From Gammaproteobacteria bacterium (GTDB lineage: Bacteria; Pseudomonadota; Gammaproteobacteria; Steroidobacterales; PWYM01), in contig PWYM01000265.1 of the NCBI GenBank assembly GCA_003567855.1, positions 1 to 37,174 of the forward strand: a stretch of 37,174 nucleotides of DNA, given 5' to 3'. The notes beneath the pieces are model-generated. The model was not told the origin of the DNA. It ran no database searches and saw nothing but the letters and a program-made list of their open reading frames with translations. Position 1 is the stretch's first letter. Each line of letters begins with the position of its first letter. The position numbers and the translations under genes are program-made. Shown piece after piece: positions 150 through 7,190 of the stretch.

Positions 150-1085
150 GTGAGCGAGCGCCACCGGCTGATTTTTGCCGGCACGCCCGATTTTGCAGTG
201 CCCTCACTGGCAGCACTGCTCGAAGGGCCGTGGGACGTGGTCGCGGTGCTCACCCAGCCCGACCGCCCCGCCGGCCGCGGCCGCCGGCCGCAGGCCTCAC
301 CCGTCAAACGCGCCGCCGAAGCGGCCTGCGTCCCGATACTGCAGCCCGAGACGCTGCGCGATGCGCAGGTGCTCGACCGGCTGCGCGCGCTCGCCCCGGA
401 TGCGTTCATCGTTGCCGCATACGGGCTACTGCTGCCGCAGGCGGCGCTCGACCTGCCGCCGCACGGCTGCGTGAACGTGCACGCGTCGCTGCTGCCGCGC
501 TGGCGTGGCGCTGCGCCGATCCAGCGCGCGCTGCTCGCCGGCGACGCGCGCACCGGCATCAGCCTGATGCGGATGGTGCGTGCGCTCGATGCGGGGCCGG
601 TGTATTCGCGCCATGCGCTCGACATCACCCCGGCCGACACCGGCGGTACGCTGCACGACCGCCTCGCCGCGCTCGGCGGTGACGCGCTGCGCGAGCGGCT
701 GCCGGCGATCCTTGCGGGCGGCCTCAGCCCGGACCCGCAGGACGAGGCGGGCGTGACCTACGCGCCCAAGCTCGACAAGGCCGAAGCCCGCATCGACTGG
801 CGCGATCCGGCGGCGGCCATCGCGCGCCAGGTGCGCGCCTTCAACCCCTGGCCGGTCGCGGAAACCTCGCTCGACGACGTGCGGATCCGCATCTGGCGGG
901 CGCGCGCGCTCGCGATGGCACACGACGCGCCGCCCGGCACGGTACTCGATGCACCCGCGGCGCTGCGCGTCGCCACCGGCGACGGCGTGCTCGAGATCGA
1001 CGAGCTGCAGTGGCCCGGTCGGCGGCCGCTCGCCGCGGCGGCCTTCGTGCAGGGACGTCCGCTCGCCGGGACGCGGCTGACGTGA
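150..1085 (+). CDS. fmt: Methionyl-tRNA formyltransferase
   Basis: The 311-residue product is close to the usual family length. It transfers a formyl group from 10-formyl-tetrahydrofolate to Met-tRNA(fMet) in the cytoplasm. The N-terminal Rossmann domain opens with GTPDFAVPSL (11-20). The catalytic triad of the formyltransferase fold is visible as Asn109 and His111 in NVHASLLPRWRG and Asp147 in ALDAGPVY. The C-terminal OB-like domain begins around residue 207. The start is GTG at 150, 32 bases after the def stop, with only a weak G-rich ribosome-binding stretch. The stop overlaps the GTG start of rsmB by four bases (GTGA), which implies translational coupling. Confidence 0.96.
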   Translation: MSERHRLIFAGTPDFAVPSLAALLEGPWDVVAVLTQPDRPAGRGRRPQASPVKRAAEAACVPILQPETLRDAQVLDRLRALAPDAFIVAAYGLLLPQAALDLPPHGCVNVHASLLPRWRGAAPIQRALLAGDARTGISLMRMVRALDAGPVYSRHALDITPADTGGTLHDRLAALGGDALRERLPAILAGGLSPDPQDEAGVTYAPKLDKAEARIDWRDPAAAIARQVRAFNPWPVAETSLDDVRIRIWRARALAMAHDAPPGTVLDAPAALRVATGDGVLEIDELQWPGRRPLAAAAFVQGRPLAGTRLT

Positions 1086-2389
1086 GCGCCGCCGCGGGTG
1101 CGGCGCTGCGCGCGGCCGCGGCGCGCACGGTCCACCGCATCGCGGCCGATGGCCGGCGTCTCGACACCGCGCTCGCGCCCGAGCTCGACGCCTTCGACGC
1201 GCGCGACCAGGCCCTGCTCAAGGCGCTGGTCCACGCCACCGTGCGCGGCTACCCGCGCGTCGCGCGCATCGTCGAAGAACTGCTTGCGCGGCCGATGCGC
1301 CCCCGCGACCGGGTCCTCGCGAGCCTCGCCGCGGTCGGCATCGCGCAGCTCGATACGCTGCGCATCCCCGAGCACGCGGCGGTGCACGCGACCGTCGACG
1401 CCTGCACCGCGCTCGGCCGCCCGCGCGCCCGCGGACTCGTCAACGCGCTGCTGCGCCGCTACCAGCGTGAGCGCGACGCGATCCATGCCCGGCTCGCCGA
1501 CGACGTGGCGTTCGCGACCGCGCACCCGCGCTGGCTTGCCGCCGCGCTCGAGGCCGACTGGCCCGAGCGCTGGCGCGACATCTGCGCGGCCGGTAACGTC
1601 GAGCCGCCGCTGTGGTTGCGCGTCAACCGTCAGGTGCAGGGTCGCGATGCATACGCGGCGCGGCTCGCCGGCGCGGGGCTGACCGCCCACCCGCATCCCG
1701 AGGCGCCGGATGCGCTGTGCGTGGAGCCTGCGGTGCCGGTGTCGGCGCTGCCGGGCTTCGATGAAGGCGCGGTGTCGGTGCAGGACGCCGCCGCACAGCT
1801 GGCCGTGGAATGGCTCGCGCCGGCGCCGGGCCAGCGCATCCTCGACGCCTGCGCCGCACCCGGCGGCAAGACCGCGCACCTGCTCGAACGCGAGCCGGGC
1901 CTCGGGGAGGTCGTCGCCGTCGACATCGACGCGCGGCGGGTCTCGGAACTCGGACGTGGGCTCGAGCGTCTCAACCTGCGCGCGACGCTGCTCACCGCCG
2001 ACGCGACCCGCCCGGCCGACTGGGCCGGAGGCCGGCGCTTCGACCGCATCCTGCTCGACGCGCCGTGTTCGGCGACCGGCGTCATCCGCCGGCACCCCGA
2101 CGTGAAGCTGCTGCGTCGCGAGCGTGACCTCCCCGCATTGGCGCGCCTGCAGGGCCAGTTGCTCGATGCGCTGTGGCCGCTGCTCGCGCCCGGCGGCCGG
2201 CTCGTGTTCGCCACCTGCTCGGTGCTCAGGGTCGACAGCGAAGCGCCGCTTGCGGCATTCCTGCAACGCCGGCCCGACGCCCGGCCGGTGGCTCCCGGCG
2301 CGGCTATCCCGTCGGCACAGCGAAGAATTTTCCCGGGGGAGGCGAATATGGACGGCTTCTATTATGCTTGCCTGCAACACGTCGACTGA
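1082..2389 (+). CDS. rsmB: 16S rRNA (cytosine-967-C5)-methyltransferase RsmB
   Basis: This is a 435-residue SAM-dependent methyltransferase that modifies C967 of 16S rRNA. An N-terminal NusB-like RNA-binding domain covers roughly residues 1-140. The catalytic domain carries the SAM loop DACAAPGGKT (255-264). It has both cysteines of the m5C mechanism: Cys329 in DAPCSATGVIRRHPD and Cys379 in ATCSVLR. It ends with the conserved FPGEANMDGFYYA stretch. The reading frame is open further upstream, to 1010, but that part lies inside fmt. The GTG at 1082 overlaps the fmt stop by four bases and gives the normal family length. Fmt-RsmB adjacency is widespread in proteobacteria. Confidence 0.95.
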   Translation: MSAAAGAALRAAAARTVHRIAADGRRLDTALAPELDAFDARDQALLKALVHATVRGYPRVARIVEELLARPMRPRDRVLASLAAVGIAQLDTLRIPEHAAVHATVDACTALGRPRARGLVNALLRRYQRERDAIHARLADDVAFATAHPRWLAAALEADWPERWRDICAAGNVEPPLWLRVNRQVQGRDAYAARLAGAGLTAHPHPEAPDALCVEPAVPVSALPGFDEGAVSVQDAAAQLAVEWLAPAPGQRILDACAAPGGKTAHLLEREPGLGEVVAVDIDARRVSELGRGLERLNLRATLLTADATRPADWAGGRRFDRILLDAPCSATGVIRRHPDVKLLRRERDLPALARLQGQLLDALWPLLAPGGRLVFATCSVLRVDSEAPLAAFLQRRPDARPVAPGAAIPSAQRRIFPGEANMDGFYYACLQHVD

Positions 2390-2410: not shown

Positions 2411-3034
2411 ATGGCGTTCCTCCACAGTCCACCATGCGCGGGTGCGCCTGCTCCGGGTCCGCGGGCATCCCTGCGCCGTTTGCTGCCAGCGCTGTTCCTG
2501 GCGGTGGTGTCCGTATGGGTGGTGCCGGTCGCGTCGGGCGCCGAGGGCCGCTTCGAGGTGCGCTCGGCCGAGGCCGAGCTGATCGACGGGGTCTACTACC
2601 TCGATGCGCGCGTGCAGTACCGGCTCAGCGCCGATGCGCTGGATGCGCTGGAAGCCGGCGTCGCGCTGACGCTCGAGCTGCAGATCGAGGTCAATCGCCA
2701 GCGCCGTCTGCTGCCCGACCAGAACGTCGCGAAGCTCACACAGGCCTACCAGCTCCAGTACCACGCGCTGTCGGACCGCTTCGTCGTGCGCAACCTCAAC
2801 ACCGGCGAGCAGGAGTCGTTCGCGACGCTGTTCGCGGCGCTGAACCAGCTCGGGCGTATCGTCGACCTGCCACTCATCGACGCCGCGCTGCTCGATGACG
2901 GCGGGCGCTACCGGGCGCGGATGCGCGCGGTGCTCGACACCCGCGCCTTCCCCGGGCCACTGCGCCTGCTCGTGTTCTGGGCCGACGGGTGGCGTATCGA
3001 GAGCGACTGGTACTCATGGCGACTGGACCGCTGA
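2411..3034 (+). CDS. DUF4390 exported protein
   Basis: This is a 207-residue protein. A basic N-terminus and a hydrophobic stretch (about 22-41) ending in VASGAE suggest a signal peptide cleaved near residue 43. The mature part is a single beta-rich domain with features I recognise from DUF4390 proteins: EVRSAEAELIDGVYYLDARVQY, then LELQIEVNRQR, and a C-terminal ESDWYSWRL. The function of the family is unknown. It typically sits between rsmB and an NtrYX-type pair, as here, which suggests a periplasmic or membrane-associated link to the sensor. A GAGG ribosome-binding site lies six bases before the ATG. Its end overlaps the predicted start of the kinase gene. Confidence 0.88.
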   Translation: MAFLHSPPCAGAPAPGPRASLRRLLPALFLAVVSVWVVPVASGAEGRFEVRSAEAELIDGVYYLDARVQYRLSADALDALEAGVALTLELQIEVNRQRRLLPDQNVAKLTQAYQLQYHALSDRFVVRNLNTGEQESFATLFAALNQLGRIVDLPLIDAALLDDGGRYRARMRAVLDTRAFPGPLRLLVFWADGWRIESDWYSWRLDR

Positions 3035-5244
3035 GGCGCCATCTCGTCACGCTGCTGATGGTGCTGGGCGCGGCACTGTGGTTCGCCGCGCTTCTGCTGC
3101 TCGCGCAGACCGCGCAGAGCCCGACGCAGTTCGACCGGCTCCAGAACTGGATCCTGCTCGTCAACGCCGCCGGCGTCGTCGTGCTGCTCGCGCTGATCAT
3201 CGGCAGCCTCGCGCGGCTGGTGCGCGATTACCGGCGCCACGTCGCCGGTGCCCGGCTGAAGGCGCGCATGCTCGCGATGTTCGTCGTGCTCGCGGTGCTG
3301 CCCCTGGTGCTCGTCTACTACTACGCGGTGCAGTTCCTGAACCAGGGCATGGACAGCTGGTTCGACGTGGAGGTCGGCGCCGGGCTGGAGCGCGCGATAG
3401 AGCTGTCGCGGCTTTCTCTGGACATGCGCACGCGCGATTTTCTCGACCGCACGAACGCCATCGCCGACGAGCTCAGCGAGCTCGACGACATGTCGCTGGT
3501 AATGGCGCTGTCGCGACTGCGCCGCGAGCACGGTGCGCTGGAGGTCACGGTGTTCGGCCGCAGCAGCCGGATTATCGCGACCAGCGCCGCGGACCCGACG
3601 ATCAGCGTGCCGTCGCTGCCCGCCGACGAGGCGCTGCTGCAGGTGCGCCAGCAGCGCCCGCACGTGAGCCTGGAGCCGGCGCCCGAGGGTGGCTACCACG
3701 TGCGGATCATGATGCGCCTGCCCGACTACGAGCCCGGTGCACCGCCGCGTACGCTGCAGGCGTTCTACCCGGTCGCGCCGCGGCTTGCGTCGCTCGCCGA
3801 CAGCGTCGACGTCGCCTACACCCGCTACAGCGAGCTCGACTACCTGCGCACGCCGCTGAAGTACACCTTCACGCTCACGCTCACGCTGATCCTGCTGCTG
3901 TCACTGCTCGGCGCGGTGTATCTCGCGTTTTTCTTCGCGCGTCGGCTGGTGGCCCCGATCCAGGATCTCGTGGCCGGTACGCGCGCCGTTGCACAGGGTG
4001 ACTTCGACACGCGACTGCCGGTGCCGGCGCGCGACGAGATCGGCTTCCTGGTCAACTCGTTCAACGACATGACCCGCGGACTCGCGCATGCGCGCGAAGA
4101 GGCCCGCGACAGCGCCGCGCGGCTCGAGAGCGCGCGCGCGAACCTCGAGGTGATCCTCGCTCGCCTGTCGACGGGCGTGATCGCGCTCGGACCGGACCGG
4201 CGCATTCGCATCGCCAACTCGGCGTCGGGCGCGATCCTCGGCGTCGCGAGCGAGACGCTGGCCGGGCATGCGTTGCAGCAGGCCGGTGATAACGCGCTGA
4301 TGCAGCAGCTCGCCGAGGTCGTCGACAAGCGGCTCGACGCCGGCGAGTCGGAATGGCGCGAGGAGATCGTGCTGCGCGGCGAAGTCGGCCGTCGCATCCT
4401 GATGTGCGCGTGCACCGCGCTGCCCGCCGATCCCGGCGTGCCCGGCGGCCACGTGATCGTGTTCGACGACATCACCACGCTGCTGCAGGCGCAGCGCGAC
4501 GCCGCGTGGGGCGAAGTCGCGCGCCGGCTCGCGCACGAGATCAAGAACCCGCTCACGCCCATCCAGCTTTCGGCCGAGCGCCTGCGCCGGCGCTACCTCG
4601 ACCAGATGTCCGCCGAGGACGCCCAGCTGCTCGACCGGGCCACGCACACCATCGTGCAGCAGGTCGAGGCGATGAAGTCGATGGTCAATGCGTTCAGCGA
4701 CTATGCGCGCGCACCCGACATTGACATCTCGAGCTTCGACGTCAACGAACTGATCGTCGAGGTCGTCGACCTCTACCGGGTGCAGGAGGCCCCCGCGCGG
4801 CTGCTCGTGCAGGCCGACTCGCGGCTCGGGCGCATCGAGGCCGACGTCAACCGCATCCGCCAGATCCTGCACAACCTGATCCGCAACGCGCTCGAGGCCA
4901 TGGAGAGCCAGGCCGATGCTTCGATCCGCATCCGCACTCGCCTCGAAGACATCGGCGGCCAGCGTTTTGCCCGGATCACCGTCTCCGACAACGGCCCCGG
5001 CTTCCAGACGGAGCGCGCCGAACAGGTCTTCGACCCTTACGTGACGACCAAGCCCAAGGGCACCGGGCTGGGGCTTGCAATCGTCAAGAAACTCGTCGAG
5101 GAGCACGGCGGACGCATCGAGGCGGGAAACCGCAGGCATGGGGGAGCGCGGGTCAGTATACTGCTGCCTGTAGATGAGGCCGCCCGGGACACCACCGTAT
5201 CCGGATCGTCGCGGCGAAAGGAACAGCGTAGGGAGCGGGCATGA
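3016..5244 (+). CDS. ntrY: NtrY-type membrane sensor histidine kinase
   Basis: This is a 742-residue kinase from the ATG at 3016. An in-frame GTG at 2989 is possible but lies deeper inside the DUF4390 gene. Predicted membrane segments fall near residues 11-30, 45-65, 86-106 and 285-307, leaving a roughly 175-residue extracytoplasmic sensor region between the third and fourth. A HAMP domain (about 308-360), a PAS-like domain (about 375-490) and a complete kinase core follow. The phospho-acceptor is His507 in LAHEIKNPLTPIQLSAERL, with N-box NLIRNALEAM, DNGPGF and GTGLGLAIVK motifs. It should phosphorylate the regulator encoded immediately downstream, whose ATG overlaps its stop. NtrY is assigned by architecture; the signal is unknown and need not be nitrogen. 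Confidence 0.88.
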   Translation: MATGPLRRHLVTLLMVLGAALWFAALLLLAQTAQSPTQFDRLQNWILLVNAAGVVVLLALIIGSLARLVRDYRRHVAGARLKARMLAMFVVLAVLPLVLVYYYAVQFLNQGMDSWFDVEVGAGLERAIELSRLSLDMRTRDFLDRTNAIADELSELDDMSLVMALSRLRREHGALEVTVFGRSSRIIATSAADPTISVPSLPADEALLQVRQQRPHVSLEPAPEGGYHVRIMMRLPDYEPGAPPRTLQAFYPVAPRLASLADSVDVAYTRYSELDYLRTPLKYTFTLTLTLILLLSLLGAVYLAFFFARRLVAPIQDLVAGTRAVAQGDFDTRLPVPARDEIGFLVNSFNDMTRGLAHAREEARDSAARLESARANLEVILARLSTGVIALGPDRRIRIANSASGAILGVASETLAGHALQQAGDNALMQQLAEVVDKRLDAGESEWREEIVLRGEVGRRILMCACTALPADPGVPGGHVIVFDDITTLLQAQRDAAWGEVARRLAHEIKNPLTPIQLSAERLRRRYLDQMSAEDAQLLDRATHTIVQQVEAMKSMVNAFSDYARAPDIDISSFDVNELIVEVVDLYRVQEAPARLLVQADSRLGRIEADVNRIRQILHNLIRNALEAMESQADASIRIRTRLEDIGGQRFARITVSDNGPGFQTERAEQVFDPYVTTKPKGTGLGLAIVKKLVEEHGGRIEAGNRRHGGARVSILLPVDEAARDTTVSGSSRRKEQRRERA

Positions 5245-6602
5245 CGAGCGCACGGATCCTGGTCGTTGACGACGAAGCGGACATCCGCAACCTGATCCAG
5301 GAAATCCTTGACGAAGAGGGTTACGAGGTCGTGGTTGCCGCCGACGGCGAGCAGGCACGCGCCGCCGTGGCCGATGACGAGTTCGACCTCGTGCTGCTCG
5401 ACATCTGGATGCCCGACGTGGACGGCATCACGCTGCTGCGCGAATGGTCGGAAAGCGATGCGCTGCGCTGCCCGGTGGTGATGATGTCCGGTCACGGCAC
5501 CGTAGACACCGCGGTAGAGGCCACGCGGCTCGGCGCGGTCGACTTCATTGAAAAACCGCTGTCGCTGACCAAGCTGCTGCGCACCGTCGAGCGCGCGCTG
5601 GACGAGGCGCAGCGCCGGCGTGCGTCGCCGGGCCGCAACCTGCTCGCGACCATGCTGCTGCCGGTCGGGCGCAGCCGCACGATGCAGTCGCTGCGCGACG
5701 AGGTCCAGAAGCTCGCGCCACATGACGCGCCGGTGCTGATCACCGGCGAGCCGGGTACCGGTCGCGAGGCCTTCGCCCGCTACCTGCACTCGCAGAGCCC
5801 GCGTGCCAACGGCCCGCTGGTGGCCGTAGTCTCCACGTCGCTGACCCCGGAAACCGCCGAGCTGCAGCTCTTCGGCCAGGACCGCGACGCCGAGCGCCAC
5901 CCCGGTTACCTGCAGCAGGCGGCCGGCGGCGTGCTGTTCATCAACGACGTCGCGAGCCTCGACGAAACCGCGCAGGGCCTGCTGTTGTCGGCGCTCGAGC
6001 TCGGCAGCTTCAAGCCCGTGGGCAGCAACCAGGCCGTGGCGCTGGACGTGCGCCTGGTGTGCTCGGCGTCGCCCGACTTCGACGCCGGCCATCCGGGCTT
6101 CCGCCAGGATCTCTATTCACACCTTAACGTGCTCACTCTGCGTGTGCCGCCGCTGCGCGAATACGCCGAAGACGTCCCCGAGCTGCTGCGTTACTACATC
6201 GACATGCTCATCGACGCCGAGGGCCTGCCGTTCCGGCGCTTCGGTGTCGCCGCGCAGAACCGCCTGCGCAACTACCCGTGGCCGGGCAACGTGCGCGAGC
6301 TTCGCAATCTCGTGCATCGGCTGCTGATTCTCGGCGGTGACGAGGAAATCTCGCTCGAGGAAATCGAAGCCCAGCTCGAGGATGCGGTCTCCGACAGCGA
6401 ACCACTGGTCAAGCAGGATCTGCTGGCAATGCCTCTGCGCGAGGCGCGCGAGCATTTCGAGCGCGCCTACCTCCAACAGCAGCTCACGCTGTGCGGCGGC
6501 AAGGTCGGCCAGCTCGCCAAGCGCGTCGGCATGGAGCGCACCCATCTCTATCGCAAGCTGCGCTCGCTTGGCGTGGATTTCCGGCAGGCCTCCGACGACT
6601 GA
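5241..6602 (+). CDS. ntrX: NtrX-type response regulator with degenerate AAA+ domain
   Basis: This 453-residue regulator overlaps the kinase stop by four bases (ATGA). Its receiver domain (1-122) is intact: acidic pair Asp10/Asp11, phospho-acceptor Asp54 in LVLLDIWMPD, Ser83 and Lys105. The central domain (about 140-375) has the fold and sensor II segment (WPGNVREL, 347-354) of sigma-54 activators. Walker A reads GEPGTGRE with Arg175 in place of Lys, Walker B reads VLFIND instead of LFLDE, and the GAFTGA loop that contacts sigma-54 is missing after LQLFGQ (208-213). The Fis-type helix-turn-helix (about 400-445, GKVGQLAKRVGMERTHLYRKL) looks intact. It probably binds DNA under phosphorylation control without ATP-driven sigma-54 activation. 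This last point is inferred. Confidence 0.9.
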   Translation: MTSARILVVDDEADIRNLIQEILDEEGYEVVVAADGEQARAAVADDEFDLVLLDIWMPDVDGITLLREWSESDALRCPVVMMSGHGTVDTAVEATRLGAVDFIEKPLSLTKLLRTVERALDEAQRRRASPGRNLLATMLLPVGRSRTMQSLRDEVQKLAPHDAPVLITGEPGTGREAFARYLHSQSPRANGPLVAVVSTSLTPETAELQLFGQDRDAERHPGYLQQAAGGVLFINDVASLDETAQGLLLSALELGSFKPVGSNQAVALDVRLVCSASPDFDAGHPGFRQDLYSHLNVLTLRVPPLREYAEDVPELLRYYIDMLIDAEGLPFRRFGVAAQNRLRNYPWPGNVRELRNLVHRLLILGGDEEISLEEIEAQLEDAVSDSEPLVKQDLLAMPLREAREHFERAYLQQQLTLCGGKVGQLAKRVGMERTHLYRKLRSLGVDFRQASDD

Positions 6603-6620: not shown

Positions 6621-7190
6621 TCAGTCCGGCATCCTGATCAGCAGCACCTCGACCTGCGCTTCGCGCAGCCGGTCGCGCACGCGGTTGAGGCGTTCGAGGT
6701 CGTCGAACGGCCCGATCCGTACCCGGTGGAAGGTGTCGCGGTCGATCTGCACGCGCTGGATTTCCGACTCGATGCCCTGCAGCGCCAGCGACGCCTTCAT
6801 GCGGTCGGCGTCCTCGTAGCGCGAGAACGACCCGGCCTGCAGCACGTAGCGACCGGGTGCCTCCACCGCCTCCGGTGTACGGTCGGGACGTGCCGGGCCA
6901 TCGGTTTCCGGTACGACGACCTCGAACTGCGGCAGCAGCTCGTAGAAGTCGAAACGACGGCCCGCAGGTTCCGCCGGCTGCGGCGTGATGACCTCGGTCG
7001 GCGGTTCGTCGACCACTGTCGCCGCGGGCTGCGGCGTTTCGGGGGTCGGCGCGTCACGGTGCTTGAGGTGGATCGCGACCGCGATCGCGAGCCCGACCGC
7101 GAGCCCGAACAGCATCCAGACCCAGCCGGGCGTCGACTGTGACTGGCGGCCGCGCCGCGATCGGGTCTTGCGCCTGCGACGTGTCGCCAT
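6621..7190 (-). CDS. SPOR-domain membrane protein (FtsN-like)
   Basis: This is a 189-residue single-pass protein. It has a very basic cytoplasmic N-terminus (1-18), one membrane helix (about 22-41), a Pro/Thr/Glu-rich periplasmic linker with a DFYELLPQFEVVVP segment (81-94), and a C-terminal SPOR domain (about 112-187, beginning GRYVLQAGSFSRYEDAD). SPOR domains bind denuded glycan strands of septal peptidoglycan, so a role at the division site is likely. The gene starts three bases after argS ends, and argS-SPOR adjacency is common in gammaproteobacteria, where the protein is often labelled FtsN-like. It lacks recognisable FtsN essential-domain sequence, so I do not assign the symbol. Its 3' end converges on ntrX. 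Confidence 0.88.
   Translation of the reverse strand: MATRRRRKTRSRRGRQSQSTPGWVWMLFGLAVGLAIAVAIHLKHRDAPTPETPQPAATVVDEPPTEVITPQPAEPAGRRFDFYELLPQFEVVVPETDGPARPDRTPEAVEAPGRYVLQAGSFSRYEDADRMKASLALQGIESEIQRVQIDRDTFHRVRIGPFDDLERLNRVRDRLREAQVEVLLIRMPD

Follow-up and report, generated by a model that had tools for sequence, protein, structure and literature searches.

Does an NtrX-type response regulator with a degenerate AAA+ motor still activate sigma-54 promoters, or does it control transcription in some other way? This question is raised by a gene at positions 5241..6602 of the window, the whole stretch of 37,174 nucleotides analysed here, which is one contig of a 302-contig draft genome. By translation and Pfam the 453-aa product consists of a receiver domain (REC), a degenerate AAA+ domain, a lid and a Fis-type helix-turn-helix (HTH). 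It lies on the plus strand, like all genes and domains described below unless stated otherwise.

The gene stands at the end of a group assigned by Pfam to Fmt, a methionyl-tRNA formyltransferase (150..1085), an RsmB-type 16S rRNA methyltransferase (1010..2389, start codon provisional), which is a conserved neighbour, a DUF4390 protein (2411..3034; PF14334, 153 bits) and an NtrY-type sensor kinase (2989..5244, start codon provisional). The DUF4390 protein is a homologue of PlrP and the proposed third component of the system (PMC13001219). With rsmB and DUF4390 located 5' of the kinase-regulator pair, the locus has the gene order of DUF4390-linked (PlrPSR-type) NtrYX systems. The original prediction that the regulator is coupled by four bases to a full NtrY-type kinase is correct: the stop codon of the kinase and the start codon of ntrX overlap in an ATGA (5241..5244), a -4 spacing found identically in 142 of 259 loci scored, and the kinase has HAMP, PAS_4, HisKA, HATPase_c and NtrY_N domains with intact catalytic motifs (HEIKNP, N box, DNGPG, GTGLGL). 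Convergent with ntrX, on the minus strand, lies an ordinary SPOR-domain protein gene (6621-7190).

Pfam finds four domains in the regulator. The receiver (residues 3-125, 5247..5615; Response_reg) has dN/dS values of 0.05-0.14 among near relatives and contains Asp54 (5400..5402), the predicted phosphorylation site, in the motif LLDIW; this Asp is present in all AAA+-bearing sequences scored, in every group. The Sigma54_activat match (119 bits) covers a series of altered motifs. Walker A reads TGEPGTGRE (168-176, 5742..5768) with Arg175 replacing Lys, and Walker B, within GGVLFIND, reads VLFIND (231-236, 5931..5948) with Asn235-Asp236 replacing Asp-Glu. By sequence comparison the L1 loop segment (205-230, 5853..5930) has no GAFTGA after LQLFGQ; the stretch is replaced and not simply excised, as its span is 26 residues versus 28 in the NtrC-like protein of the same genome. 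The sensor I region is VRLVCSASPDF (270-280, 6048..6080). In the arginine-finger helix FRQDLYSHL (287-295, 6099..6125) the first finger, R288, is present and the second is lost, His294 standing where NtrC and alphaproteobacterial NtrX carry Arg. The lid (305-378, 6153..6374; AAA_lid_14) keeps the sensor II motif WPGNVREL, and the HTH (403-441, 6447..6563; HTH_8), with the core MERTHLYRKL, is the slowest evolving domain. All residue changes named in the original prediction (Arg175, Asn235-Asp236, the absent GAFTGA and the sensor I sequence) as well as the parts it took as intact (Asp54, WPGNVREL and the HTH) are thus found in the translation and by Pfam; the loss of the second finger comes in addition.

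The protein shares with the NtrX family the adjoining NtrY-type kinase and the REC-AAA+-Fis HTH fold, and it lacks the GAFTGA loop, the Walker A Lys and the Walker B Asp-Glu of sigma-54 enhancer-binding proteins. Its best NCBIfam match is NtrX (NF051870) with 414.5 bits, which is below the curated equivalog cut-off of 600 bits. Judged by its sequence, the regulator is therefore NtrX-like, outside the NF051870 equivalog, and belongs to a gamma/beta branch apart from the alpha type.

A search of 59 relatives revealed orthologues in most of the window's order, with 50-78% identity. After removal of duplicates and fragments, Arg is found at position 175 in 47 of 47 usable same-order sequences, the window included, which rules out a lesion peculiar to the source genome. 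Two divergent f13 sequences (L058, L059), tallied outside the 47, both have Lys within a broken P-loop. Sampling was widened to 80 named gammaproteobacterial loci (Steroidobacteraceae, Woeseiaceae, Chromatiales, Competibacteraceae, Methylococcales and others) and to loci anchored on DUF4390. In the resulting FastTree tree the window protein falls into a clade of 77 members (branch support 79, the exact edge not being firm), all 77 of which have Arg; elsewhere in the tree Arg is uniform in two groups, of 16 and 6 members, and occurs in three single rows. Within the clade R180 after the P-loop is kept in 70 of 77 members and the first finger, R288, in 69; residue 294 is H, R, Q or L, Walker B residue 235 varies between N, D, S and R, and residue 236 between E, G and D.

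Two further groups of the window's order deserve mention. The f13 genomes (L058, L059, L332) have about 1.4 Mb and retain DUF4390-NtrY-NtrX, with no rpoN detected; their NtrX proteins are very divergent (about 35% identity) and have altered P-loops such as GEAGTDKE. In the f12 genomes G015, G028, G039 and G050 no NtrX match, rpoN or canonical activator was detected.

A comparison of some 250 NtrX relatives places the window protein in a wider picture. None of the NtrX examined, alphaproteobacterial ones among them, has GAFTGA; the sole similar string, IFTGA in L198, is probably due to chance. Because the motif is missing in all NtrX sampled, the alpha type included, its loss is the default, ancestral state of the family, which is partly known already. 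In the NtrC-like control, Lys, GAFTGA or GSFTGA, and the second finger are each present in 30 of 30 proteins. Alphaproteobacterial NtrX is without GAFTGA, yet Lys, the Walker B Asp and both arginine fingers are conserved in 27 of 27 sequences. Most gammaproteobacterial NtrX outside the window's clade retain Lys and have mostly lost the second finger: among those with Lys (n = 79), Walker B Asp-Glu is found in 27 and the second finger in 13. The other end of the series is formed by the order of G254, labelled beta-type here from its gene order and the short regulator form. Of its 43 loci 36 keep a decayed AAA+ domain with an unrecognisable P-loop and without a single Lys; the first finger is changed to Asp or Glu in 33 of these, and the L1 span is reduced from 26 to 14 residues. 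In the remaining seven (L220, L256, L263, L270, L272, L281, L287) the AAA+ domain is deleted and a REC-linker-HTH protein of 218-266 aa occupies the NtrX position, with linkers that vary in length and sequence. On the tree these deletions amount to four changes. Several independent deletions are nevertheless not established, since a single-origin tree survives the AU test (p 0.36).

By these comparisons the window protein is one stage of a graded motor loss over gamma- and beta-type proteobacteria. Scoring Walker A Lys, Walker B Asp-Glu and GAFTGA in NtrX orthologues, as had been suggested, yields losses that are clade-wide and, for GAFTGA, family-wide. The idea that this one protein "has become" a different regulator is therefore not upheld, as the change is an ancient family trait.

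Rates of evolution were compared in 29 genomes holding both NtrX and the NtrC-like control, each total tree length being divided by that of the receiver. The ratio of the AAA core is 2.21 in NtrX versus 0.36 in the control, whereas the NtrX lid (0.76) and HTH (0.69) evolve more slowly than the receiver. In a separate rate comparison the K-gamma HTH rate is unreliable, because L217, and perhaps other rows as well, carries a truncation or a frameshift. The conservation pattern is thus reversed: the motor is the slowest part of the NtrC-like control and the fastest part of NtrX. Lid and receiver are equally conserved in the 77-member clade. Between near relatives the AAA core has dN/dS values of 0.08-0.34, which are rough with synonymous sites near saturation; the core is therefore under purifying selection, neither a pseudogene nor drifting freely. 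Receiver, HTH and kinase are strongly selected, in agreement with the proposal that the pathway is under selection.

Conservation within the core is very uneven. Of its 163 columns only five never vary in the clade; the P-loop supplies four of these (G169, E170, G172 and R175), while Walker B residue 235 ranks 106 and sensor I residue 278 ranks 111. The description of the engine as dead hence fits Walker B, sensor I and the second finger, which have decayed, and does not fit the P-loop: with Arg175 invariant in 77 of 77 members this site has not been abandoned. The conserved P-loop argues that the pocket keeps some role, of which nucleotide binding may be one.

The AAA+ domain is predicted with confidence to fold. 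An AlphaFold2 model has a mean pLDDT of 80 and about 90 in the AAA core; with a pTM of 0.53 the arrangement of the domains is untrustworthy. Over its full length the model most resembles NtrC4 and Brucella NtrX, the latter in ADP-bound, nucleotide-free and ATP-bound form (Z 29-30). For Brucella NtrX 5m7p, Z is 29.7 with 425 residues aligned, and the whole-chain rmsd of 16.7 reflects domain placement. FleQ and VpsR AAA+ domains are also among the matches.

The window's genome carries RpoN plus activators in which Lys is kept along with GAFTGA or GSFTGA, and RpoN is present in 51 of the 59 relatives. Two adjoining Sigma54_activat genes of this genome (G000:C177:36024-38036) both match the P-loop Lys and GAFTGA patterns. 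The presence of PF00158 alone is uninformative, as each of the 14 control genomes, archaeal ones among them, has a match. Among 249 DUF4390-bearing genomes of the class, rpoN was undetected in six (G093, G328, G133, G141, G408, G218). G093 (99% complete), whose NtrX (L193) belongs to the all-Arg clade, was not accepted as proof that sigma-54 is dispensable. An NtrC-like protein with Lys and GAFTGA persists there, which makes it probable that the assembly has missed rpoN; a second enhancer-binding protein of this genome reads GAFTDA. G328 and G133 retain many strong Sigma54_activat matches and are probably incomplete, and G548 was excluded from the tally for an NtrC-like protein with GAFPGA. 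Neither rpoN nor a canonical activator besides NtrX was detected in seven genomes keeping the NtrX locus, namely G408, G218, G591 (beta-type order) and G016, G029, G040 and G051 (window's order, very divergent NtrX); the DUF4390-NtrY-NtrX order was verified in G408, G218, G591, G051 and G016. None of the seven belongs to the all-Arg clade, and completeness is 85-92% in four; they support sigma-54 independence for the wider family and not directly for the Arg clade. For the window protein, whose own genome has RpoN, independence is suggested by its residues and its relatives.

Among known systems, Brucella abortus NtrX (PDB 5m7n/5m7o/5m7p) shares the REC-AAA+-Fis HTH layout, with 42% identity in the structural alignment; unlike the window protein it has been crystallised with ATP and ADP. 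The alphaproteobacterial NtrX sampled share the partner NtrY and the missing GAFTGA, and differ in retaining Walker A Lys, Walker B Asp and both fingers. Alpha ntrYX adjoins ntrBC, whereas the window system adjoins rsmB-DUF4390 (PMC13001219). The latter order, together with a HEIKN-type kinase, is shared by Bordetella PlrPSR, whose regulator is PlrR (PMC13001219). From Bordetella genetics, PlrP (DUF4390) seems to keep the phosphatase activity of PlrS, the NtrY homologue, in check, and PlrR seems to be essential in its phosphorylated form (PMC13001219). Beta NtrX has been reported as AAA+-less (PMC13001219), while the window protein retains a degenerate domain. NtrC and PspF have the AAA+ and lid fold, WPGNVREL and the first arginine finger in common with it; their catalytic Lys, Asp-Glu Walker B, GAFTGA and second finger are gone, and the conservation pattern is reversed. 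VpsR and the NtrC proteins of Rhodobacter capsulatus and Caulobacter, although from different families, are relatives of enhancer-binding proteins that lack GAFTGA and are active at sigma-70 promoters (PMC10274813). Caulobacter NtrC requires its Walker A Lys and Walker B Asp for function; the window protein has neither. Published NtrX proteins bind their promoters and control them depending on phosphorylation (PMC9223101, PMC7240162), and they both activate and repress: Sinorhizobium NtrX needs the receiver Asp for DNA binding and regulates cell-cycle promoters (PMC9223101), and Rhodobacter sphaeroides NtrX mostly activates envelope genes and maybe represses some (PMC7240162). The missing GAFTGA of Caulobacter NtrX was known (PMC10274813), as were AAA+-less beta NtrX (PMC13001219). 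Searches of the open-access literature turned up no gamma NtrX described as having Arg in its P-loop. Relative to the literature searched, three findings appear to be new: the gamma stage of the graded loss, the Arg P-loop throughout an order, and the exceptional conservation of this P-loop.

Taken together, we consider it probable that this DNA-binding regulator is controlled by phosphorylation, acts independently of sigma-54 and carries a pseudo-ATPase domain in graded loss, working in an fmt-rsmB-DUF4390(PlrP)-NtrY-NtrX system. By homology NtrY, probably tuned by periplasmic PlrP, would phosphorylate Asp54, and the phosphorylated regulator would bind DNA by its conserved Fis HTH and regulate promoters, be it as activator or as repressor, without opening sigma-54 complexes. 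The AAA+ domain would fold and be kept as a pseudo-ATPase scaffold with a strongly selected Arg P-loop. With catalytic Lys, Walker B Asp-Glu, sensor I, second finger and GAFTGA gone, the domain is very unlikely to hydrolyse ATP or to remodel sigma-54 complexes, although Arg in the P-loop taken alone would leave room for slow hydrolysis. In the least certain step, the Arg P-loop probably holds a nucleotide or phosphate or relays the receiver signal to the HTH.

Other explanations have to be weighed against this one. The draft state of the assembly might suggest an assembly error or a pseudogene; the chance of this is negligible and we regard it as ruled out, given an open frame, dN/dS well below 1 and 46 orthologues from other assemblies with the same Arg, which also excludes sequencing error as the source of the substitutions. 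That the protein is still a sigma-54 activator, with an ATPase site of unusual type and another loop for contact with sigma, would agree with the retained AAA+ fold and with RpoN in its genome and most relatives. We hold this to be highly improbable, as GAFTGA, catalytic Lys, Walker B and the second finger are all gone and related loci persist where neither rpoN nor other activators were detected. Hardly better is the prospect that the Arg P-loop region serves to sense some ligand different from ATP, such as the c-di-GMP sensed by FleQ or VpsR. The structural matches to these two proteins and the conserved R180 speak for it; however, activators often have an Arg after the P-loop, and FleQ also requires an LFRS motif before its AAA+ domain, where the window protein reads MLLPVGRS.

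The remaining alternative is a variant of the phosphorylation-controlled regulator and differs from it on the P-loop. Here the AAA+ domain is an inert relic, only a spacer or dimer scaffold heading for deletion and binding nothing. The AAA core is indeed the fastest-evolving part of NtrX, and in the beta-type order the P-loop is unrecognisable or the whole domain gone, so that REC and HTH suffice there. In the window's clade, on the other hand, the P-loop with its unvarying Arg175 is the best conserved part of a core whose dN/dS is well below 1, and a relic is for us rather doubtful. Slightly ahead of it, and still tentative, we place a stronger form of the phosphorylation-controlled regulator, in which selection actively keeps a pseudo-ATPase in the Arg clade: the change from Lys to Arg would have become fixed and been held in all 77 lineages as the remainder of the catalytic site decayed, nucleotide bound without hydrolysis would set the oligomer or DNA-binding state, and phosphorylation and nucleotide would be read together.

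Annotation based on PF00158 labels such proteins as sigma-54 activators, and a survey of Acidithiobacillia counted NtrX among them by this criterion (PMC12194929); the NtrX family should not be read in this way. The statement that beta NtrX lack the AAA+ domain is refined, since a decayed domain is present in most sampled loci of one beta-type order. The lineage represents a natural series from a motor with Lys to no motor, in which receiver and DNA-binding parts stay constant, and comparing its stages makes testable what the AAA+ domain of enhancer-binding proteins does besides sigma-54 remodelling.
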